Assembly (NCBI RefSeq): GCF_932294415.1
Contig: NC_065535.1
Location: 83,163,862 to 83,227,861, forward strand
Direction of reading: 5' to 3'
Source of the DNA: Quercus robur
Taxonomy: Eukaryota > Streptophyta > Magnoliopsida > Fagales > Fagaceae
Length of the DNA: 64,000 bases
A program made the position numbers and the translations under genes. This document shows, in pieces, positions 238 to 59,290 of the stretch (positions within the stretch are counted from its first letter, which is position 1; every line of letters starts with the position of its first letter). The notes beneath the pieces are model-generated. The model ran no database searches, had not been told where the DNA came from, and saw only the letters and a list, made by a program, of their open reading frames with translations.

Positions 238-627
238 TATGGTATCAAAATTTTTCTACAAAATATATTCGCATCAATATATGTTTAGCAAGTTGTGTAC
301 GGATGAACTCCTTAATTATTAATTTATTTTACTCCAATGTACACTGGTCAGTTTTGGAGGAGTTTTAGAACTGCACTATCGGGGTCGATTTATGTAAAAG
401 CTTGAATTGCTGATGTATAGCTCATTATGATATTTGATTTGATCGGTGGTGGTTACGAGTTAGTTGTTGACACAAAATTTCTCAAGCATGAACTCACACG
501 GGTGATTAGGGGATTTAAACACCGAAACTCACAATAAATCTATCTTGTCCATCGAGCTGGCTTGGATTGATTTGAGTTGAGAAGATGTATATCTGCTTCG
601 ATTTACATGATTACAACATGAGGTGGT

Positions 628-848
628 TCACAACAGTGACTTAGGTCTATTTAGATAATGTTTATTGCTGAAAACTGAAAACATTATAGCAAAATAATTT
701 TTAAATGTGTGAAAAGTGCCATAAGACCCAATTTTAAAGTTAGATTTATATTTTTCCGTACTTGCGGGTCCCGTGAACAGTACATTAGATCCAGCCAAAA
801 AACGCGCACGCCAGCACAAACGCAATGCGTTGCTATCCAAACTAACAC
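628..848. mobile_element. hAT-like MITE relic
   Basis: The stretch contains a string of phrases typical of a widespread tree MITE family: GCTGAAAACTGAAAACATT, a tract ending in GTGTGAAAAGTGCC, a GTGAACAGTAC block, then repeated AAACGC/CGCAATGCG and a terminal TATCCAAACT. The left end (TATTTAGATAATG) and the reverse complement of the right end (AGTTTGGATAGC) match loosely as terminal repeats. No protein is expected. Family recognition is from memory. Confidence 0.5.
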
Positions 849-990
849 TCAATGAGAAAAATAGAAATGGAATGGAACACATTTGCTTCGATTTATACAA
901 GATGGAATGAATCTAAACATTTCTAAATTTGAACAGGGTTGACAATGTGGGGGGAGAGAACACTAAATGGGTAGATTGATTCTACGTACA

Positions 991-1023
<33 letters not shown>

Positions 1024-1024
1024 T
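991..1024. repeat. compound (CT)n(AT)n microsatellite
   Basis: A CT dinucleotide run passes directly into a TA run. It lies in otherwise featureless AT-rich DNA. Confidence 0.9.
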
Positions 1025-1104
1025 AAAAAAATATAAAATATTAACAATAGATATAATTTCTAAGACATTCTCCAACTTTTTTTTTTTTTTTTTTAATTTT
1101 TAAA

Positions 1105-1195
1105 TTCAATAGTTGAGGAGGGAGAGTTTGAACCATGAATATCTCCTAGAGAATTATTAAGAAGTGTAAGTTGAACTACAAAACTCTTAGCTATT
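1105..1195 (+). repeat. degenerate dispersed repeat (SINE-like)
   Basis: It contains TTCAATAGTTG, a GGGAGAGTTTGAACC block resembling a pol III B box, then CTCTTAGCTATTCC-type text. The same order of blocks recurs near 1870, 4688 and 51364, which suggests an old retroposon family. The copies are strongly diverged and no target duplication is visible. Confidence 0.35.
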
Positions 1196-1615
1196 CCAAT
1201 TTATATATTATGCTTTCACGAAATGCTCTTCCTGATCTAAACGATGAAAATGATACTTCCCCTTAAAGTTTATAAAAATGTAATAAGTTTATAGTATACT
1301 CTATCACGTACACTATGACTTCTCTCTAATGGTCTATTCCATATGCATATTTTTAATTCCTTCTCATTTAGAGAAGTGTAATTTCGTACAAAGTTAATTG
1401 GTATAATTTTTTTTTTAAACAGTGTCATTTTGTAAATGTTTCAAAGCACCCTTATTTACATAAAGATTCTTATAAAATAGGATCACATGATGATAATTTG
1501 ATAATAATTCTTTTTTTGGGGGGATGGGGGGTTTGATCTTTTGATATTATTCCCCATTTGTAGGAATAAATTGTGATTCGAAGCCAACTATTCTATTAAT
1601 CTATTTATGAAATTT

Positions 1616-2094
1616 TGGGGGTGTTTGGCAAATGACAAGATAAATTAATCTATTAATTTATTGTTTTAGTTTGGTTAATTTTTCATTCAAAAAGCCAGTT
1701 CAAAATGAGATAAGATATATTCCCATATAAACCACTTTTTGCTTTAATACTTTCAAATCCATTTCCTCCATTTTTTAATATAAATTTTAGTGTTTTCTCA
1801 TACATATTCCTACAAAAGAAATCAATGTTTTCATGAATTATTTATTTATTTATAATTTTATAATTTATAATTAGAGGGGAAAGATTTAAATCTTGAACGT
1901 ATACCAGGAGGTGTCAATTAATATACAATACAATCTTGACCCCATGAAGTGATATTAATTAAAATTAAAATTGGTTCTGATATGATTCAAGACAAATTAG
2001 ATAAAATAAAGACAACTAAATTTTGGACTCTTTTTTTTTTCTTTTCCTTACATAAAAACTGAAGGATTTTTATGGTTTACCAAACACCCTCTTA
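1616..2094. mobile_element. non-autonomous TIR element (hAT-like)
   Basis: The left end reads GGGTGTTTGGCAAA and the right end, reverse-complemented, reads GGGTGTTTGGTAAA. This shared ~14-bp terminus brackets about 480 bp of AT-rich, non-coding sequence. An older repeat fragment (about 1865-1930) lies inside. An 8-bp target duplication is not clear (AAATTT is present on both sides but is low-complexity). The terminus is common in plant hAT-type MITEs. Confidence 0.5.
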
Positions 2095-2104
2095 AATTTA
2101 GTCA

Positions 2105-2860
2105 TCATGATGCAGTCAAGCAATATGTGAGCTAAATGTCCAGCGCAGGGATTATAGTTTTACATAATTTAGATACATTCAATACAGAAATAGTGCTCCA
2201 TGAACGTTTTTGTGCTACTTGTACGTGCTCATTCCATGGTAACTAATTTCACAAGATTGAGATCCAATACATACCTAGGGGTATTGCACTGTGCAATAAT
2301 ACTTTCAATAGTTGAGATTAAAAGTTGAAAATTCATTTTCAATCTTAATTCTTGGATAATTTTTTTAATCTTTTAATATTTTTTACTTTGTAAACTTTTT
2401 CCACTCACATTAAAATGGTAATAGCATAATACAATTGCACTGGATCCAAATTAATCGGATTGGCAAGCTTGACATGAAAGCTCTTGCCGGCGGGGTGGGT
2501 GACTTGATGGGTGCATTGTAATGAATCAGAATTAATAAGACTAATAAATGGACAAAAAGAACCAAAAAAAGGAGAAGAAAAAAAGACTGTGATCTATTCG
2601 TCATGGAATTATAATAATTTTTACAAGCCTTTTGACATGTGTTATGTGCATGCTTGATGGTTCTTTAGTTTTTAAAGAAAATATAAACTATTTTAAAGTT
2701 ATAATCGCAAGCAGTTCTAATTTATTTGTATCATAATTTTATGTTATTTGAATTTTAAACTCCTCTTCTTACTCATTATGTCCTTGATTTTTTTTATTGT
2801 TAAATAATTTTTAGTTAGATAACAAGGTTAGCTAGCATTGGAAGTATAAAAAAGCGAATA
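2105..2860. other. intergenic, nothing recognised
   Basis: AT-rich DNA without a supported gene. The only open frame is a 64-codon minus-strand one at 2410-2604 with no recognisable motif, which is best treated as chance. Confidence 0.6.
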
Positions 2861-2867
2861 ATATATA

Positions 2868-3166
2868 TCTATATTATCTATAAGAAGATTCATCTATTTG
2901 GATTGAACTTTTATGTGGTTCAGAAATACTCCTAGACCTTATTTTTAATGGGAAAAAACTTGAGGACAATTCGATAAAAATATATCTCTAACTCCACTTA
3001 AAATGCCTTCAAAAGAGGACATTTTCCTACTAATCAATATCTTCAAAACAAACTTATTCAATTTTTTTTTTAAAAATAAAAAATTATGACATCATCAGAA
3101 AAAAGAAAAAAGAAAAGAGAAGAAGAAGCCTCGTTACAGGTGCAAAGACGCATGTGACGAGGCTAG
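2868..3166 (+). mobile_element. mini-Helitron, copy 1
   Basis: The 5' end TCTATATTATCTATAAGA follows an A. The 3' end is CTAG followed by T, which matches the Helitron rule of insertion between A and T. Just before CTAG lies a hairpin whose arms are GCCTCGT and ACGAGGC, extended by ACA/TGT, around a ~13-nt loop. The element is about 299 bp, has no terminal inverted repeats and encodes nothing. A second copy of the same family lies at 4343-4600 in the same orientation. The 5' end could instead be the second TC at 2877. Confidence 0.65.
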
Positions 3167-3169
3167 TAG

Positions 3170-4019
3170 ATAATACATATAAATATAGAATCATAGATAT
3201 AGATAATTAAAATAAGAAATTGTCAAATCATATTCCCTTCATAGTAATAAATATAGACATGAACATAAAAGATGAGGGGACCGCACGAATATTATACCAT
3301 AGTCAAATGTGTTACTCATGAACTTAGTTCAATCATGGATAAAATCTAAGTATGGTCGATAGATCATGCAGACCATAATGCAAAGCTGGAATGCTTTTGT
3401 TTCGAGCTTGAAGTGTTGTTCATATTTATTTGTACATTGGGTTTTTGATTTTTCCATTTTTAACTCGGCTTTTCGTTCTTGTTTTTCATAAGGGTGAAAG
3501 ACAGGTGAAGATGGAAGGCTAGAATCTAGATCCAGTGCTTAATTTCCATTATAATTAACACAAGTACAATCAAAACCATCACCCTCCCTATTAGACTAGA
3601 CTTCCAATGCCTACACCGGCCTATAGCTAACATTCCAAAAAGAGCTCTACTAATTGGAAGTGGATGTAAAACTATGACTTATAGGGTTCTTTACATTCAA
3701 GTGTTGCCGATGAATGCAATTAAGATATAATAGTTTGAATTTATCTAAAAATATATAATAGGTTGAATTTATAGCCCTATAAAATTTTTATTCAATATAA
3801 AAATTTTCATTTAAATAAAACAGTTTTAAAGAATGGTGATTATTGGTGAAGTGTGGAGCTTTTAATTAGATGAATTTAGTTTGAAATCATGTCTCTTGAC
3901 AAGTGCCATGAACTTTGTAAGTTGTCATGCAATTTATTAGTTACTTGAGGCTAAATTAATGTCAGCTTATTATGATATAATTTATATTCACATTGGGATT
4001 TAATTGCAATAAGTGTGTG

Positions 4020-4020
<1 letters not shown>
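3170..4020. other. intergenic, nothing recognised
   Basis: AT-rich DNA between the first mini-Helitron and the AAT/ATT repeat. No gene or clear repeat was identified. Confidence 0.55.
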
Positions 4021-4024
<4 letters not shown>

Positions 4025-4057
<33 letters not shown>

Positions 4058-4085
4058 TATTATTATTATTATTATTATTATTATT
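4025..4085. repeat. palindromic (AAT)n/(ATT)n microsatellite
   Basis: About ten AAT units are followed directly by about twelve ATT units, so the tract is its own reverse complement and could extrude as a hairpin. The long isoleucine runs that open on both strands are artefacts of this symmetry. Confidence 0.9.
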
Positions 4086-4342
4086 TTATGGCCCAATAAC
4101 CATAATGTATTAGGTAAACACCCATTCAAAGTGTTGGAAGATGGACAAAGTTTGGTTACAGCTCTCACTAAAAAAATTAATATAACTGTATATTTTGAAA
4201 ATCTAACCGTCAAATTACATATTTTTTTATGTCTTTAATTAACAAGTATGTTAAATTTCACATTCATATTAGAACGCTTACATCAATACGTTCCACTTTT
4301 TTTTTTCATTTAAACGAGAGATAACTCTAAATCTATGATTTA

Positions 4343-4600
4343 CATATACTATCTATAAGAGTATTCACCTCTTTGGATTGTATTTTTATTTGGTTAAGAA
4401 ATACCTCTAGACCTTACATTTAACAGAGAAAAAACTTGAGGACAATGCGTAAAAATATAATTCCAACTCCACTTAAAATGCCTACAAAATAGAACACTCT
4501 CCAACTAATCCATGTTTTCAAAACAAACTTATCAATTTTTTTTTAAAGAAAATTATGACTCTAGACCAAAAAAATAAAAATAAAAGTATGATGAGGCTAG
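4343..4600 (+). mobile_element. mini-Helitron, copy 2 (partial 3' hairpin)
   Basis: It aligns through its whole length to the element at 2868-3166. Shared blocks include TATCTATAAGA, TTTGGATTG, CTCTAGACCTTA, ACTTGAGGACAAT, AACTCCACTTAAAATGCC and TTTTCAAAACAAACTTAT. It ends GATGAGGCTAG followed by T. The left arm of the 3' hairpin has been lost, so only GAGGCTAG remains. The copies differ by many substitutions and are old. Confidence 0.6.
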
Positions 4601-4622
4601 TGTGTGTGTGTATATATATGTG
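4601..4622. repeat. (TG)n(TA)n microsatellite
   Basis: A short TG run passing into TA immediately abuts the 3' CTAG end of the second mini-Helitron, consistent with T-rich target preference. Confidence 0.7.
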
Positions 4623-4685
4623 GTAGCTTAAAATATCTTAAGGAATTTTCAAAATGGGGGCATATGTTTCCCTAAAACGACCTTA

Positions 4686-4797
4686 TATTTCAATAGTTAT
4701 AATGGGGGGGAAAATGATTTAAATCCTGGATGCCTTTCTTAGAAACAATAAAACGTATCAACTAGTTGAGTTATAAAACTTTTGATAAAACAAACTT
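4686..4797 (+). repeat. dispersed SINE-like repeat remnant
   Basis: Blocks in order: TTTCAATAGTTATAATGG, GATTTAAATCCTGG, CTTAGAAACAATAAAACG, CAACTAGTTGAGTTATAAAA. The same order is seen, more decayed, near 1105, 1870 and 51364. I regard it as an old non-coding retroposon family without firm classification. Confidence 0.4.
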
Positions 4798-4799
4798 TT

Positions 4800-6600
4800 T
4801 ATAATAATTGGGAACGAAATTTTTCCAACATTTCAGTTAGATGAGGACATATATGATCCAAATTCATTATATATAGGATGTATTTTTCTCTGTGATACTG
4901 TATAGGATTCATTCATGAAATGTGATTAAATTCTACACTAACTATCAATTATCAAGGCATTTTACATTATTCTAAGGGCATTCTTCTAACCAAATAATAA
5001 TTTTCCATGCAAGCCACCTTAGCCTTAATAATAATTATCTATACATAAAATAAGACTCCAATTAGCTTATCACTCTTTACTTTTTAATGTAGGGTTATAG
5101 CTATACTTTCTTACCTCTCTACATTTTAATATTGAATTGACTATCATTTAAGCCAATTTTTAGAAAATATTTCTCTTGTCTCAAACAATTGGAAATCAAA
5201 CTACATGAATTTGTATGTAAACATAATTCACACACTATTAGAGTATATATAATTGAAATGACACTTGGATGAGTTTGAAGTTTATTTAAAATCTATAGAC
5301 ACTACTTAACATCAAATTATTGGATAATTAGAATGACATTTGGCAAAAAGTTAGAGTGCGATTAGAATTTAATTTAGATTCTTAATTAAACTTCTTCTCT
5401 ACTTCTACTTTTATATATTATATAAGATTCACGGACAACATGGATAACATGGATTAACAAAAGCAAACCTAAAAATTACAGCCAATTGACAAACCCAAAT
5501 ATATTTCACCCCAACTTGAAACTCATTTCACATCCCTCAAAGGTTGAGTTTGACATCCCTTAATTTCCAATAACTTATTTTACGGAAATGTGAGACAAAA
5601 GGGAAAAAAAGAAAGAAAAAAGAAGTTAATTTTTATTATTATTATTTTATTTTGTAAAATATGAAGACAGAGAGTGAGTTTAAGCAAAAAACAAACTAAA
5701 CAGTTGGGCAGTCAAACGGATCCCAAATTAAATGTTCTAACCAGTAATCACATAACTCTCCACATAGGAAAATCAATTTGGCCTAAATCTTCTATTTGGT
5801 TGAACCCGATCAAATTATTAACGCTAATACCAATAGCTTTGTAACTCATTGTATTGTCTGCTTTTCTAAATAAGTAAAATCATAGTTTTGAGTCCCCCTT
5901 CTACCATTGTTATAACTATCAATTTTTTTTAAAAAATTAATTAATTTCTAAGTGTCTCATGACTATAATTCAAATCCTATCTTCCCTTTTCTCCAAAATC
6001 TATCTATTTCAGTTCATCAAAAAAAAAAAAAAAAAAAAACAATATGAAGTACACAGGTATTTGGGACAAAATATACACACAAATAATTTTGTTTTCCACC
6101 AATTAATGTAGTGCCCCCAAGGGGTCCATTAATTAGCTGACGAGTTAATGATGTGGTACGGGCCAGGGTTACGATTATGCTCAAAGATGTGGTGATTCCA
6201 ATTCTAGACGTCGTTTTTATGCCATTTAATGGCCAATTAAGAGTCTTCAACCATTAGGTTGGGTTTTCTATTTAAAATATTTACAAGGAAGGTGACAGAT
6301 GAAACACACAAAAACAAAACTAGCGAATCACAAAACACAATTTGTTAGTGTACCGACTACCGATTGCGATTAGACTTTGTTCCCTTTCAAGTCTGGCAAT
6401 TCTAGGGCTTATTTATAGATAAATTATTAGGTATTCTCGAAAAACAGTGTCGTGATATTCATTCCTCTTATATAAATGATGAATTGAATTATTATTTGTG
6501 AGGAGAGAGTAAGACATGTACGCCTAATCATAATGCTAGGGATTGACTAGTAAGAGCAAAATTATTGCCAATATAGAGTTTAGCAAACAAAAATACATTA
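4800..6600. other. intergenic; one retroposon-type A tail
   Basis: AT-rich, no supported gene. At 6011-6040 the text GTTCATCAAAAA continues into a ~21-nt A run. This is the TTCATC(A)n tail seen at other retroposon insertions in this window (8640-8895, 41246-41265), so a 5'-truncated LINE-type copy probably ends here. Its 5' limit cannot be set. Confidence 0.45.
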
Positions 6601-6602
6601 TA

Positions 6603-7269
6603 AGAGCATCCCCAAGCAGCCTTGGAAATGTCAAATGTAAGCAGCATTTGGCATTTAGGCCCAAAATATGCTCAGCAGCTGGAAGGCTAAAAGTCGGAAA
6701 ATGCAAATTCTTTTGTAAGATGGCACTGTAACACTATGCCAAAAATAATATTAATATTTTATTCATACTTTTCTCTCTCATCTCTCTCTGTCTTTCTCTG
6801 TCTCTCACTCCCTTTCCTCTCTTTCTCCCTCTTCTCTATTACACTTTCTCAGATACTATATGGCGTTGAGCATCATGCACCAGATCGGAGCTCACGCCGG
6901 ATCGAAGCTCACACTTTCACAGATACGAACTCAATCGAGACAATCGGGACGGTGAGTGCAGTGTCTGTGTGGAAATCTCTGGTGTCGAGTCTCCGATGTA
7001 AGGTCCAAAAACCAGATGTGGATTTTGGTCCATCGTCGCTGTTGAGTCCATGCAGATCGTCGATGCTTGGAGCGACACGAGCCAATCTCTCAGTGGCGTG
7101 TAGAGCCTTCGCGACGAAGACAATCTCTCCGTGGCGTGCTGTGGGTGCTGATTGGGTTTGTTTAGATCAGCAAGTGGCTGATGTGGTGGTTTTGCCGTGG
7201 GGGTTATGGTGTGGTTTTGCCATGGGGGTTACAATGGTGGTGATGTTTTAGACCTAGAGAGACCTTGCT

Positions 7270-7301
<32 letters not shown>

Positions 7302-7530
7302 CCCTCTTTCCGTTCTTGTGCCAGAGGTTGAGGGAGAGAGACGAAAAGCAAAAGAGAGAGAGAGAGAGAAATAGTAAAAAAAGAATAAAAAAGAATATTT
7401 AAATAAAATGGGAAAAAAATAGAATTTTGGGATGTTGGGTGTGTTGTAAAATAGTATGGTATAATTGATAAAGTAGTTTTTTTGAAATGGTAAAATGGGA
7501 TGAGATAGCATTTCTAGATATTGATGCTCT
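6603..7530. mobile_element. non-autonomous DNA transposon with AGAGCATC ends
   Basis: The left end reads AGAGCATCCCCAAG and the right end, reverse-complemented, AGAGCATCAATATC. Inside are mirrored CT-rich (6770-6850) and AG-rich (7330-7375) subterminal tracts, consistent with longer imperfect inverted repeats, and a GC-richer core at 6860-7250. The core is open on the + strand from an ATG at 6736 for 171 codons, but the N-terminal third is just CT-repeat-encoded Ser/Leu and no domain is recognisable. A ~33-nt T run sits at 7271-7301. No exact target duplication was found. Confidence 0.45.
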
Positions 7531-8590
7531 AAGGCCTACGAGCATTCTAAACATTTCAGCTTTGTTTTTATATCTGCTAGTTTAGAAAAGGCAATGTATT
7601 TCTTTAAGGATTTTTTTAACATTCATTAAGAAAATGTTTTTAGAAACTTTTTAGGAAAAATATTTTATATTTTTCATAAAAATAGTATAAAAAATTTCCT
7701 AAAATAATTCACTAACTAATACTCTAAAAACGCTTGTTAAATGATACTATTGCTACCGGACACAATAGGTAATATAATAAACCTTAACTAAAAATATAAT
7801 GGACTTTTTTTTTATTCAGTTATATATTTGGACTTGAGTCTTGATATTTCTAACATTTTTTCTCAACCACGTTATATGAATTGAATGCTCTCATCTCTCT
7901 AGTACATATAGTTTTGAACGTGAATTCACCAAAAAAAGAAAAATAAGGAAAAAAGCAAAATTGAAACAAGTGTACAAACACAAATCCACGTTGCATACAT
8001 AATAATGCTAGATTGGTTGAGAATCACTCACAAGCACGATTACCATAATATAAACCTTCAAAGAGATTTACAAAACTTGTACGTTCGAATTATTGAAGGC
8101 TGTAAGCAAATTATTGTAGACTTATCATATAGTGCTATTTAGTATTTATAACTGAGCTAACCGTGAATTGTTGACTTGCCTAGCTACAAAGTCCAAGCTA
8201 TATGTATATAAGGTGACCCTAGTATTTAAGTCTGTGTTACCTAAATATAATGATGGGGTTATAATGTATGGGCCTCAAGAAAATGAAGATAAAGAGATAG
8301 GAATGCGTGGAGCTACGGGTTCCAAAGGTTGTGGAACTTAATGACATGTACAACATATAATACGGCATATCCCATGTGCAATGTGGTCACAAACCATTTT
8401 GTCACCAATATACCTGCTCCTTCTAGTACTTGATACGTTTAAACCCTTCTTCTTTTTTATTTTTATTTTTTAATATTCCCTACTAATTGGGAAGATACAT
8501 ATATCTATCTTTGCTTTCAAAATATGGCCCCTACTTACTTATGCCTTGACAGTTCAAGATCTTAATTCTATATGTTTTTTCTTCGTTGGG
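7531..8590. other. intergenic, nothing recognised
   Basis: AT-rich spacer without a supported gene, RNA or repeat boundary. Confidence 0.55.
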
Positions 8591-8596
8591 AAAAAT

Positions 8597-8850
8597 ATCC
8601 AAAGATTATACACCTATATAGTCCAAAAGACTTTTGCGTACTTTTTTTTTTTTTTTTTTTTTGATGAACCAAAAATTTTATTACGCAAAAGACTTTTGCG
8701 TACTAAGATATCTGCTTTCGTACCAAAGAGATTATACACCCATATAGCCCAAAAGACTTTTGCGTACTTTTTTTTTTTTTTTTTTTTTTGATAAACCAGA
8801 AATTTTATTACACAAAAGACTTTTGTGTACTAAGATATCTGTTTTCGTAC
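8597..8850 (-). repeat. tandem duplication containing a truncated retroposon tail
   Basis: Two ~126-bp units (from ~8597 and from ~8722). Each holds CAAAAGACTTTTGCGTAC, then a T run of about 20, then GAT(G/A)AACCA(A/G)AAATTTTATTA, then the CAAAAGACTTTTG(C/T)GTAC block again. The flanking ~18-bp repeat looks like the target duplication of a minus-strand 5'-truncated LINE/SINE insertion (tail TTCATC(A)n). The whole locus was later duplicated in tandem. The serine-poor, Phe-run frames here are not genes. Confidence 0.6.
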
Positions 8851-9180
8851 CAAAGAAATTAAAGGCACTATTTCATCAAAAAAAAAAAAAAAAAGCTCTA
8901 ACTCAAAGGACATTTCTTTCCCCTACAAGAATAGATAGTGTAACATTTGATGTATAAGTAATTTTTGTAAAACCTAACTAGGTGCCAATAAAGAGAATCC
9001 AAAAGCATCACCATGATATCCTTTTTCTCGTTCAATTTGATTTGATGTCCAACGTGTGTCAGTGTTAAATCGTGATGATGATTTTCCCAGGGGGAAAAAA
9101 TGGTGACAATGATAAAAGGAGCAGCAGTACTGAGTTCCTTACCCATTGAATAAATGCAAGATGCAGACATTTTTGTTTTC

Positions 9181-9325
9181 AATACAAGATATAAATTATA
9201 CTATATCTTAATTTAAATGTATATGTGTGTGGAGCTCTCTCTTAGAGACTTAAACTCCAGTCCTTGCCCTTTACACCCCACAAGTACTTATACTTATGAA
9301 GTGACCATCGCACCAATAGTGCGCA
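9181..9325 (-). mobile_element. tRNA-derived SINE, minus strand
   Basis: Read on the minus strand, it has a box A-like TTGGTGCGATGGTCACTTC, then AAGTATAAGTACTTGTGG, a box B-like GGAGTTTAAGTCT, a GAGAGAGCTCC stretch and the tail leading to ATCTTGTATTG. The order and wording match the better-preserved copy at 30098-30258, so both belong to one family. This copy is more diverged and its A tail is reduced. Confidence 0.65.
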
Positions 9326-9711
9326 GTGATGCTCATCTATTTTTTGGGTAAATTTTATAATTTGTAAGCTGCATTCTAAACCAACTGGAGCTGCTAATTG
9401 TGATTGCATTTGTGTGTAGCCTTCTCTGTTTCACATGCTCTATGCCCATTTTTAAAGGCTTTTTAGTTTCTATTTTTACTTATTTATTTATCTTTTCTTT
9501 TAAGGATTCCCTAATGATTTCTACAGGTATATAACTTCAAATTAAAAGAAAGGATGCTAAAAAAAAATCTGACATACGTGAATAACGTGAAACTAATAGA
9601 AAATATTTAAAGATTCAATAACTTGGGTGCCTAGCATGCAAATGAAGAATTTAAACAGAAGCTTTGTGTTAATCTTGTGAGAAACTTTGAAACAACACCG
9701 TTCTAGCTTAA

Positions 9712-51345: not shown

Positions 51346-51547
51346 AAATTGTAATTGATAATTCAATAGTTATAATGAACAGTGGAGATTTGAACTCTAG
51401 ACTTACAAATTGGCATTTTTCTCAGTAATCCATGTTGGAAAGAAAACAAATGTTTGGAAAATATTTAAAAATATATCAAACACTATTTTCCTTAGAAAAC
51501 CAACTAGTCTTATAATTACTAAGAGCATTCGGATATCTCTTTTTTAG
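51346..51547 (+). repeat. ~200-bp direct repeat, copy 1
   Basis: It starts AATTGTAATTGATAATTCAATAG and ends GAGCATTCGGATATCTCTTTTTT (both given here in joined short blocks: AATTGTAATT, GATAATTCAATAG; GAGCATTCGG, ATATCTC). The same ~200 bp recurs, nearly identical, at 52737-52760 plus 53571-53755 (split by a solo LTR). The two copies bracket the Pack-MULE-like element exactly. Confidence 0.8.
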
Positions 51548-51985
51548 GCGAAAGTACATAATTAGTCCCTGAAATTTATCCTATGTGCGCAATTGGTTTC
51601 TTAAGTTTCAAGTAAGCACAATTGGTTCCTCAAGTTTTCAAAATGAGCAATATAAGTCATTCGGTTAACTTCTGTTAGTGATGTTACTTATGTAGCTAAC
51701 GGAATAATGATCTAACTTTTTTTAAATGATGTGGCATTCTTTTTTATTAAAAAATTACAAAATTAAATTAACACATAAGAAAGAAATTAGACCATTCTAA
51801 TTCAAATCTTTGTCCTAGCCCAGTACAAAAGTGATCAACGGTGCCATGGCAATGTCAACATAATGGAAAGAAAAACTTTATCCAACACCGTCGATTATGT
51901 GCCTTGGCTTTAATCGGATTAAGACAATTGCAATTGTCTTAAAGAAAAACGTTATTGTTTGATGGTGCAAACTTTAAGCAATTGT

Positions 51986-52082
51986 TTTAGAATGATTGAC
52001 AGTGCCACATTGGACGAAGACAAGGTGACTCCGGTGTACAAGCTCGAAGAGATCTACGAGCTTTGCAGAACTACCAGAGGAA
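51986..52082 (+). pseudogene. captured fragment of an ENTH/VHS (MTV1-like) gene
   Basis: The frame reads RMIDSATLDEDKVTPVYKLE then EIYELCRTT. This strongly recalls the N-terminal start of the ENTH/VHS domain of plant MTV1-type clathrin-associated trafficking proteins (R-M-I-D-x-A-T-x-D-E-D-K-V-x-P-V-Y-K-L-E-E-I). Only ~30 residues, about one exon edge, are present; the remainder of the domain is missing. The flanking codons have no homology that I recognise. It cannot make a functional protein; it is a transposon-borne piece. Identification is from memory of the family. Confidence 0.65.
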
Positions 52083-52118
52083 GCCAGAGAGTGGGTAGAC
52101 TAAAGTTCCACCAAATAG

Positions 52119-52280
52119 TTAGACTAAATTTTCACCAATGTAGTTGCGGACCCATGTTTGGATGAAGTGGGGTAGTGGGTCCCACAGTTTCATTGACAAG
52201 AGACTCCCAAGAACAATGCGGTTGTAAAAGGTGGCCCCATCCATGAATAGTTGTAGATATGCACCACCATGGTCATCCAT
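52119..52280 (-). pseudogene. captured first-exon fragment of a sterol C-5 desaturase gene
   Basis: The minus-strand frame contains MDDHGGAYLQLFMDGATFYN then RIVLGSLLSMKLWDPLPHFI then QTWVRNYIG. This matches the N-terminus of plant delta7-sterol C-5(6) desaturase (STE1/DWF7), notably FYNRIVL, LWDPLPHF and QTW-RNY. The parent enzyme acts late in sterol synthesis, upstream of brassinosteroids. The desaturase His-box region is absent, so this ~54-residue piece is non-functional. It reads toward the ENTH/VHS fragment (convergent), and lies wholly inside the terminal-repeat element. Confidence 0.7.
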
Positions 52281-52760
52281 GTTTGGCGGAGGATGGTCCA
52301 ATGATTTCTCGGGTCAGGTTCTGGTGATGGGCCGATGGAAATGTGGCCAGTAATTTGGAACTTAGAGAGAGTGAGAGAGTAAAGTGGGGGAGGTCTGAGT
52401 TAGAATAGAGTATTTGAGTTGAAGATTCCGAATATAACAGGTGTGTGTAAATAATATATGGAGTGTGATAACAAATGAATAGTGCAGTGGACAATTGTAT
52501 TTGGGATGATCTAAATCTAATTCAATAGCTATTGATGGTATTTAATAAAAATAAATGCCACGTCATTTAAAAAATGTCAAATCATTATTCTGTTAGCCAC
52601 GTAAGTAATACCGTTAATCAAAAGATTTATATTACTCATTTTAAAAACTTGAGGGACTAATTGTGCTCACTTGAAACTTGAGGGACCAATTGCGCATACA
52701 GGATAAATTTCAAGGACTAATAGGGTAGTTTCGCCAAATTGTAATTAATAATTCAATAGT

Positions 52761-53570
52761 TGTGGGGCCGGGGAGCTTGCGATCCGACCCACGCTCTACC
52801 TGGGAACAGGGCCCATGCCGAGGAGGTCATGTGCCGAGGACGAATGATCGAAGGCCGAGGTGTCAAAAGGCGCAGCTGGGGACGACCTTATCCTCGGCAT
52901 TCCAGGATTTCAATGGGAAGAGCAATGACTCGATGAGATCTATCCCCAAAAAACCCCTTGAGGGGGATGTGAATGGAATGGGGCCCATGTGGAGGTACGG
53001 CGCAAAAGTGGTTCAAAGAAAACACGTCTCCTCCGCATTAAATGCACCTGCCAGCATCCTAATCACGTTAATGAGAAAAGACGTTTAGGCAGTGTAACTT
53101 CGATCATCACAACTAAACAGAAAGTAAGAGGGTACAGTTGAGGTGATAGATACAGAAGTAAGCACCTGCCTTCGCATTAATGAGAAAAGACGCTTGGGCG
53201 GTGTAACTTCGATCATCGCAACTAACAGAAAGTAAGAGGGTACAGTTAAGGTGACGAATATAGAAGTAAGCACCTGCCTGACCAACAGGTGGAGGACTAA
53301 TATCAACCAAGAAGGACTATATAGTGAAAGAGGGAGGTGCGCCAAAGGGGGCTGGGAAAAATGGCCAAAAACCTGAGTCTCCCAGCCCGCCTCCAAGAGA
53401 AAGACTCCTAGGGCGAGAATGACTTAACCATGTATGAACACCACGAAAAACCCACTACCTGGTGACCAAGGCCTAGCCTTTCAAACCTACGCTCTACAAA
53501 TGATATTGTTTGAGCATTTTTACGTGCGAACCCAACACTGTTACGGTTCGTTACTAATCGTGTCCTTACA
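52761..53570 (+). mobile_element. solo LTR (Ty3/gypsy-like), 810 bp
   Basis: Begins TGTGGGGCCGGGG and ends TGTCCTTACA. ATAGT is repeated exactly at 52756-52760 and 53571-53575. It is rich in CCGAGG motifs. Inside is a ~120-bp tandem duplication (53080-53165 and 53185-53280: GTGTAACTTCGATCATC, AGAAAGTAAGAGGGTACAG, GAAGTAAGCACCTGCC). A TATA-like CTATATAGTG lies at 53315. It interrupts copy 2 of the ~200-bp direct repeat, so it inserted after that duplication formed. Short frames here are not genes. Confidence 0.85.
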
Positions 53571-56825: not shown

Positions 56826-57505
56826 AGATTTTTTCTTTCCTATTTTTTGTTTTTGTTTTTTTTTTGAAATAGAGAGTGACCATTTCATAACAAAGAATTG
56901 GCAATTAACAAATTTAAAAGTGATTATAATGACAATTGACACATCAATTAAAATCAGTTATCAATCCTTATTTGGTGAATTATAAAATCTAAATCTAATT
57001 CTGAAATCAATATTTTCTATTTCGAAGCAAATAGAGAAAATCTTGAGACTCCAAAAAGTGCAATGAAAGTGATTAGAAAACACAGTCTCAGTCATGGGCC
57101 TACCCAGAAACAAATGTAACTGCACTAAGTGGCCCACTTCAATCGCACTAAATGGGCCTAAGATATTCAAGGTCCATGCTCAATATACACTTTTGTTGAA
57201 TCGCGAATCACAAAAATACCCACTGAGTGAGAAGGAGCGTGAAGGTCTTTTTTCTTCTTTTGTTCTCTGCCAAACACCGCGCTCACCAAACAGGTACTCA
57301 CTACTCACTACTCATTTCTAAAACTAGTAGTTAGAATCAAATTCACGGAATTCATTTTCTGGGTTTAACTTTGAAAGAGGTGCGATCACTTGAAAACTAA
57401 ATTCCCTGGAAATGTTTTTTCCATTACGAAGAATTTCATTTTTTATGACACTAGGGTTTTTGAAGGGCTTGGTCTGATCTGTTGTATGTAATTTGTTGTT
57501 ATTGT
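56826..57505. other. intergenic, possible 5' leader text
   Basis: 57210-57300 has a leader-like composition (GAGAAGGAGCGTGAAGG, GCCAAACACCGCGCTCACC) ending AACAG/GTACTC, which could be a donor site of a non-coding exon. Nothing downstream forms a matching gene, so this is not called. Confidence 0.35.
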
Positions 57506-57508
57506 CAC

Positions 57509-57545
57509 CAGGGGCGGCCCTAGACATTTTGGGGCCTAAGGCGAG
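57509..57545 (+). mobile_element. hAT-like terminus, copy 1
   Basis: CAGGGGCGGCCCTAGACATT then TTGGGGCCTAAGGCG. CAGGGGCGG starts are typical of Ac-type hAT inverted repeats. A related direct copy begins at 59293. No inverted partner was found, so the element's other end is missing or outside. Confidence 0.45.
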
Positions 57546-57554
57546 AATTAGAAA

Positions 57555-58435
57555 TATATGTGTATGTGTATGTGTATTTATGTATGTGTATGTGTATGAG
57601 TGTGTATGTGTGTGTATGTGTATGTTTATGTGTGTGTATGTGTATGTTTATGTTTATGTTTATGTGTATGTGTGTTTATGTTTATATTCATTTATATTTA
57701 TGTATGTTTATATATGTGTGTATGTTTATGTATGTGTATGTGTATGAGTGTGTATGTTTATGTATGTGTGTATGTTTATATATATTTATATTTATAAACA
57801 TAAATATAAACATAAACACAAATTTACATAAACATACATGAACACAAACAAACATACAGAAAAACAAAAAAATATAAACACACATACACATAAACACGCA
57901 TAAACAAACATAAACAAAAACAAACAAATATAAACACACATACACATAAACACACACACATAAACATAAACATACATAGACATAAACACACATACAGACT
58001 GAAAAAAATTAAACCTTCATATAGACTAGAAAAAATTGCAAACTAACACCAATCCTCAAACAATTCATTAGTTACTTTAGTGTGCTAAATCGAGCCTTTA
58101 TGTGTGTTTATGTTTATATTTAATTTTATGTGTGTGTATGTTTACGTTTATTTGAGTTTATATGTGTTTTTGTGTATGTGTGTTTATGTTTATGTATATG
58201 TATATTTATGTGTATGTGTGTATATGTTTATGTGTATTTGTATGTGTATGTATATGTGTATATGTATGTTTATGTATGTGTGTGTATGTGTGCTTATGTA
58301 TGTGTATGTGTATGTGTTTATGTGTGCTTATATTTATGTATGTTTATGTGTATGTGTATGTGTTTATGCGTGCTTATGTATGTGTATGCGTATGTGTATG
58401 TGTATGTGTATTTGTATGTGTATGTGTATTTGTAG
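57555..58435. repeat. TATGTG-type satellite with strand switch
   Basis: Three blocks: 57555-57795 rich in TGTATG/TTTATG on the + strand, 57796-57995 rich in the complementary CATAAA/ACACAT, then ~100 bp of other text (58000-58100) and 58100-58435 again TGTATG. Cys/Val/Tyr/Met-repeat frames open on both strands throughout this region are artefacts. The first two blocks together can pair as a very long imperfect hairpin. Confidence 0.9.
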
Positions 58436-58439
58436 ATCT

Positions 58440-59290
58440 CTTTGTTTTTTTCAGATTCAGGTACAATACCCTGATGCAATTATAATTAATGGTTGAGATT
58501 AAAAGTTGAAAAAACAACTTTCAATTTCAACCATTAAATAAAATATATTAAAGGAGAGTTAGAAAGTTTAAAAAAAAAAAAGAGTAAAAAATGTATAAAA
58601 AAAAACCTGCGATGCACCTGATCTCAGTTCGTCTTTCTTCTCTCACTATTTTTCTTTTCTTCTTTTTTATGTGGTGCTTTGTTCTTCTTCCTTTTATTTT
58701 TCTTTATACGTCGCCTAGGCTGACAGGAGAGGAGTGAGCGAAAGCCACGTCAAGAAAGGAAATCGAAGATTGTGCTGCCGAGCCAAAAACTATGAAAATC
58801 TCTTCCTCTCAACTCAGATGATTCATTTAGGTGAAATTGTGGCTCACGAGACTTCACCAGATTATAGTGTGTGATTTTTGTTTATTTATTTATTTGTTTG
58901 ATTAATTTGGATTTAAAATTAGTTCAACAAGATGATTATTCTTCTAAAATATAATAACAAAACCAATATATGTTTTTTTAATAGTGGGTTCACTTTCAGT
59001 GTTTTCATTTTGTGATTTTGGTTGTTTTGTGGGTTTTGTGTTTTGATTTCGGTGGGTGTGATTTGATTTGTGATTTGGTGGACTTCTGGGTTTTTGTTGC
59101 GATTTGATTTTGGCTGGGTTTTGGCCGTGGTGGTGGTCGTGATTTGATTTTGGCTAGGTTTCAGTAGTGATGCATGATTAGAGGTGATGAGCTTAAAAAG
59201 CTCTGGCCATGGAGGTTTAGAAGGAGAGCTTGGTGATCAGCCATGGAGCACGGTGTGACGTGGGTTGAGGCAGAGAGAGGATGAGAGGGA
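58440..59290. other. repeat-like interior, no recognised gene
   Basis: G/T-rich text with GTTTTGGTTGTTTTGTGG and GATTTGATTTTGGCT(A/G)GGTT repeated (59105-59165) lies between the two hAT-like termini, so it may be the interior of one element. No frame with recognisable motif. Confidence 0.4.

Follow-up and report, generated by a model that had tools for sequence, protein, structure and literature searches.

The window analysed here (64,000 nucleotides of Quercus robur, C2:83163862–83227861) contains an element of 1,189 bp that is very probably a non-autonomous Mutator-like element, a Pack-MULE, in which pieces of two host genes were captured at the DNA level and then spread as one unit; its assignment to Mutator rests on the structure of the ends and on the length of the target-site duplications in its family. 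The ends, the two sources, the composite in five copies, the duplications at three of these, and a mosaic linker are all directly seen. The parts of the window copy are the following.

51547–52735, no strand: whole element, probable non-autonomous Pack-MULE copy.
51547–51828, plus strand: left terminal repeat; the right arm matches 205 bp of it, and 282 bp are common with sister elements.
51829–51988, no strand: mosaic linker, with short patches of MTV1 exon 1 and of a third locus (about C5:58537700–58537929); longer in the sister copies L002–L004.
51989–52069, plus strand: MTV1-like ENTH gene piece (exon 1), 81 bp; likely parent at C5:19474409–19474489, minus strand.
52064–52525, minus strand: sterol C-5 desaturase gene piece, with an upstream region, an ATG at 52280, 53 codons, and a tandem duplication of ~24 bp bringing a TAA; likely parent at C2:49840219–49840590 and a little beyond; the outer limit at ~52525 was placed by eye.
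52541–52735, minus strand: right terminal repeat, without the inner ~77 bp.

The terminal regions align as inverted repeats, with arms at 51544–51669 and 52613–52738 (84% complementary) and a second pair at 51675–51751 and 52541–52617 (83% complementary). Inverted repeats of ~100 bp or longer are expected of a MULE, and here the two ends are 80% identical across 205 positions. The tips of both read GGCGAAA, and an autonomous partner would be expected to have GGCGAAACTACA ends. A first-pass annotation, made from the letters of the window, had described inverted repeats of ~200 bp with these tips, and the alignment of the arms bears this out; its view of the element as Pack-MULE-like is likewise supported by the ends, by both gene sources, and by the dispersed copies. 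The inner ~77 bp missing from the right repeat of the window copy are present at both ends in 10 of 25 elements compared. The longest stop-to-stop frame fully within the element has 82 residues, so that it carries no transposase of its own, and the host-gene pieces have parents elsewhere, both as in Pack-MULEs. A Pfam scan of three frames, including those of the gene pieces (which are short), gave nothing above the cut-off.

In a search of PDB sequences, the piece at 51989–52069 (plus strand) matches residues 14–42 of the Arabidopsis chain 1vdy_A (E = 3.1e-7), deposited under the title of hypothetical protein, which we take to be the ENTH-VHS domain of MTV1. It aligns over 81 bp at 90% identity with exon 1 of the C5 locus, the single locus matching it outside the elements with these ends. 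Because the entire first exon of this parent stays below the Pfam cut-off for ENTH (E = 0.088), the name MTV1-like rests on the chain match. The piece keeps 27 codons, and its methionine is internal in the parent (DSSRRAVESYWRS-RMIDGATSDEDK). Hence, of the ENTH/VHS (MTV1-like) start of ~30 residues first proposed, the source gene stands (chain match and C5 exon), but the protein start does not.

The desaturase piece runs on the minus strand, giving the convergent orientation already noted in the first reading, and meets the MTV1 piece at 52064–52069, where ~3 bp (AGA, judged by eye) are common to both. Three stretches of it match the C2 locus at 85–91%; a PDB sequence search with the piece gave no match. 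The candidate parent, presumably STE1/DWF7, has three exons with open frames, the first beginning MDDHGDAYVQLFMDETTFYNRVVLG, and its exons 2 and 3 match FA_hydroxylase above the Pfam cut-off; judged from its sequence, the gene is apparently intact. At least two other loci, ~21.6 kb apart on C39, match part of the piece at 80–81%. The captured stretch, ~460 bp in all, also includes ~245 bp of upstream sequence before the ATG, with the outer limit placed by eye. A tandem duplication of ~24 bp brings in a TAA just behind codon 53, and past the duplication the parental sequence resumes. The desaturase N-terminus of ~54 residues initially reported is thus right in its source and its frame (ATG at 52280, 53 codons), but the piece extends upstream and the frame is cut by the duplication. 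Since this duplication and its TAA are found in all five copies, they are older than the copies. Neither of the two short frames retains its domain, as had been claimed, and the parental genes, whose location had been proposed as a check, have likely loci on C5 (MTV1, 90%) and C2 (desaturase, 85%). Because the pieces are only 85–90% identical to these likely parents, the true donor could be a closer paralogue that has been lost.

The element was searched for in the whole genome (785.7 Mb, 42 contigs), and the best 40 of 748 candidates were scored, so that the copy counts are lower bounds. There are at least three further near-full-length copies (L002, L003, and L004, on C35, C39, and C5) and at least one broken copy (L045 on C5, with ~1 kb inserted), and many further matches among the 40 scored are limited to the ends. 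The identity of the window copy over aligned sites is 94% with L002–L004 (90% by the search tool) and 89% with L045. The composite is therefore shared by at least five places, including the window, which answers the question of whether other copies carry the same gene pieces. L003 and L004 are 99.1% identical, so that movement was fairly recent.

Target-site duplications of 9–11 bp are expected in a MULE family, and the sister copies have them: perfect direct repeats of 9–10 bp flank L002 (TAAAGGTAAA), L003 (ATTAAAATA), and L004 (ATAGTTAAA), at three different sites. The window copy has no such duplication, as its flanks TCTTTTTTA and AAATTGTAA differ. Because the duplication belongs to the insertion and not to the element, the window copy is classed by its sister copies. 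A 26-bp near-identical direct repeat lies at 51346–51371 of the window, ~175 bp to the left of the element, and at 52736–52761, at its right edge, and the missing duplication makes a rearrangement there possible. Among 25 elements (the window copy, L002–L004, L045, and L009–L028), with shifts of up to 3 bp allowed, both ends could be placed in 19 and not in L045, L009, L010, L019, L022, and L028. Fourteen of these 19 have perfect repeats of 8–11 bp, two have repeats with one mismatch, and three have none (the window copy, L018, and L021); some of the repeats are A/T-rich runs, weak evidence taken alone, that of L020 being a run of T, and those of L012 and L013 have only 8 bp. At positions 1167–1218 of L002, a 52-bp stub of end sequence lies beyond one end, with TAAAGGTAAA again just before it.

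Recognised host-gene DNA is present in 12 of the 25 elements, as classed by matches to the two parents and by translation. Both genes are found in five (the window copy, L002, L003, L004, and L045) and MTV1 only in six, namely L009 and L010, with part of exon 1 and intron 1, and L015, L017, L018, and L020, with a stretch of intron 1. In the remaining one, L027, the captured DNA codes for the N-terminal 45 residues of methionine synthase (match to 1u1h_A, E = 3.7e-22). L017 and L027 also have a short MTV1 match each (47 and 27 nt) that lies in neither exon 1 nor intron 1; these two matches were left out of the count as likely simple sequence. In the family of the window copy, the MTV1 piece corresponds to positions 5012–5092 of the parent; in L009 and L010 it runs from position 4999 into intron 1 (the intron limit placed by eye). 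Exon 1 thus continues into intron 1, which argues that at least that capture was made from DNA and not from spliced RNA. L056 and L057, which bear these ends, have the methionine synthase piece as well (L055 is the place of L027); the likely parent of this piece is L058 (C35:31535055), where a longer frame stands without such ends. A search for parents of the interiors of L011 and L023 found no clear gene. A stretch at C6:7845329–7845728 resembles the L011-type interior at 84% and may be a parent or another copy. In the 3-kb element L018, long frames resemble, by eye, a retrotransposon reverse transcriptase/RNase H insertion. Elsewhere in the window, positions 57324–58496 hold overlapping long low-complexity frames (runs of C, V, Y, and M), probably a simple-sequence region.

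The linker is a patchwork of two templates, beyond what chance would give. A 230-bp stretch at ~C5:58537700–58537929 matches 37 nt of it at 97% on one strand, and on the opposite strand provides exact patches of 18 nt and 14 nt; a further patch of 22 nt matches at 91%. The start of the MTV1 exon is matched by an exact patch of 15 nt in L002–L004, mutated in the window copy, and by several shorter ones. In L002, exact 8-mers of the two templates cover 148 of the 198 nt of linker, and the best of 2000 random template pairs covers 75. The match itself had led to the choice of the C5:58.5-Mb template, so that a fair comparison is given only by the masked test and by the MTV1 part. With the 37-nt patch and its fold-back masked, 51 of the 149 nt are covered by the C5 stretch at k = 9; the best of 5000 controls covers 30, and the best of 162 other stretches of that locus 27. 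At k = 8 the comparison is closer (51 versus 48 for the best control). MTV1 coverage alone is equalled by four of 2000 controls at k = 8, by one at k = 9, and by none at k = 10. The linker also has an internal repeat of ~30 nt, and hence some patches may be local re-copies. Outside the family, the linker part used as query matches only C5:58537862–58537898, where no gene was identified, and family end sequence was not found in the 9 kb around it. The linker of L045 was not recovered with the same probe.

The simplest reading suggested by these patches is that the linker arose by copying with repeated template switches. An ancestral element would have taken up, by copying of DNA, a small part of MTV1 exon 1 together with the 5′ end of the desaturase gene, so that both came to lie between its ends; this probably happened while a break was being repaired or replication had stalled, with the template changing repeatedly. 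The composite would then have multiplied as a single unit, with a transposase that, we infer, was supplied from elsewhere. Whether the linker is a fossil of the act of capture itself, left by DNA synthesis that switched several times from the MTV1 exon to an unlinked third locus or back, on both strands, until it reached the end of the element, seems to us evenly balanced. If such a process is general, Pack-MULEs would acquire host DNA by switching templates in series where a copy is broken or has stalled, a route already put forward for the Pack-TIRs of animals.

The transposase expected to move a MULE is of the MURA type. MULE transposase domains are abundant in the genome (the best 150 of 1249 candidates were scored), and the comparison with the ends of the element covered one of them. 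This 775-residue frame, which contains the strongest domain hit among the 150, lies in a 3.3-kb locus without such ends and has no tblastn match in 30 loci that do have them. In five 9.9-kb stretches beside family ends (L047–L051), no long frame was taken, by eye, for a transposase. A diverged or distant autonomous partner is possible. In L048, two inverted family ends stand ~9 kb apart (~577–9643), delimiting a large element or belonging to two neighbours.

Capture by a single element must be weighed against other origins. The lack of a target-site duplication at the window copy would agree with chance or decayed repeats and no real element, but the dispersed copies share the same limits and three of them have duplications, which refutes this reading and leaves it a negligible probability. 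Recombination between elements, instead of stepwise capture, would have joined two ends from different sub-lineages. A tree built from 53 ends joins the right ends with L011-type elements in a group of 14 rows (96/95) and puts the left ends in a separate group that is less well supported (90/77). However, AU tests, on groups defined once the tree was known, reject none of three alternatives: both ends placed together (p = 0.064), the left ends within the L011 group (0.275), and the right ends outside it (0.49). Chimeric ends are thus suggested by the tree and unsupported by the tests, and we consider such an origin unlikely.

It is also conceivable, and in our opinion a good deal less likely still, that the pieces are kept because they act, as sources of antisense or small RNA that target the two parent genes, or else as short peptides. 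The geometry had been correctly argued at the outset, as a read-through transcript from either end would be antisense to one parent. The window copy matches each parent exactly over 37 nt, long enough for small-RNA matching, and small-RNA or antisense effects on the parents are possible on this basis. The other copies share less, the longest MTV1 run being under 18 nt in L002 and 21 nt in L004. In all five copies the 53-codon desaturase frame is open, as is the MTV1 frame across the 25 codons compared. The desaturase coding part was compared with the rest in six of the ten copy pairs (p = 0.0085, 0.199, 0.0167, 0.583, 0.066, and 0.83, uncorrected); it is less divergent in two (Fisher p = 0.0085 and 0.0167, not independent), but the other four give 0.066–0.83. 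Moreover, the chance of no stop under 10–30 random point changes without indels is 0.33–0.69 for the desaturase and 0.46–0.77 for MTV1, and pN/pS is not consistently low. The open frames quite likely fit chance, and we infer that the captured pieces lack a host function.

Taken as a Pack-MULE, the element is ordinary and of a well-known kind. Pack-MULEs with pieces of several loci (PMC12030055) and Pack-TYPE elements with genic material from multiple loci (PMC8903248) have been described; about one-fifth of the Pack-MULEs in rice are reported to join several loci. In maize, siRNA effects on donor genes are described (PMC13317346). With the Pack-MULEs of rice and other plants it shares long inverted repeats, duplications of 9–11 bp in its family, multiple copies, the lack of a transposase inside, and host-gene pieces from unlinked loci; it differs in having two convergent pieces and a two-template mosaic linker. 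MULEs with multiple terminal repeats (PMC3310237) recall the extra 52-bp end stub outside one end of L002, whereas the window copy has a single pair of ends. The way in which MULEs acquire sequence was described in 2012 as not yet understood (PMC3310237), and a 2026 review still calls the mechanism by which DNA transposons capture unlinked genes undiscovered (PMC13317346). The closest parallel is with Pack-TIRs formed by gap filling or FoSTeST (PMC8277862), which are also multicopy, with sequences from distant loci, and for which template switching at microhomologies is proposed as the source of captured sequence; these are elements of animals, and their applicability to plant Pack-MULEs is left open in that work. 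The mosaic linker is consistent with such models, short of proof. What is unusual here is the legible junction, and the value of the element is that of a worked example, with both likely parents, five copies, relatives holding more of MTV1, and a junction with traces of copying.
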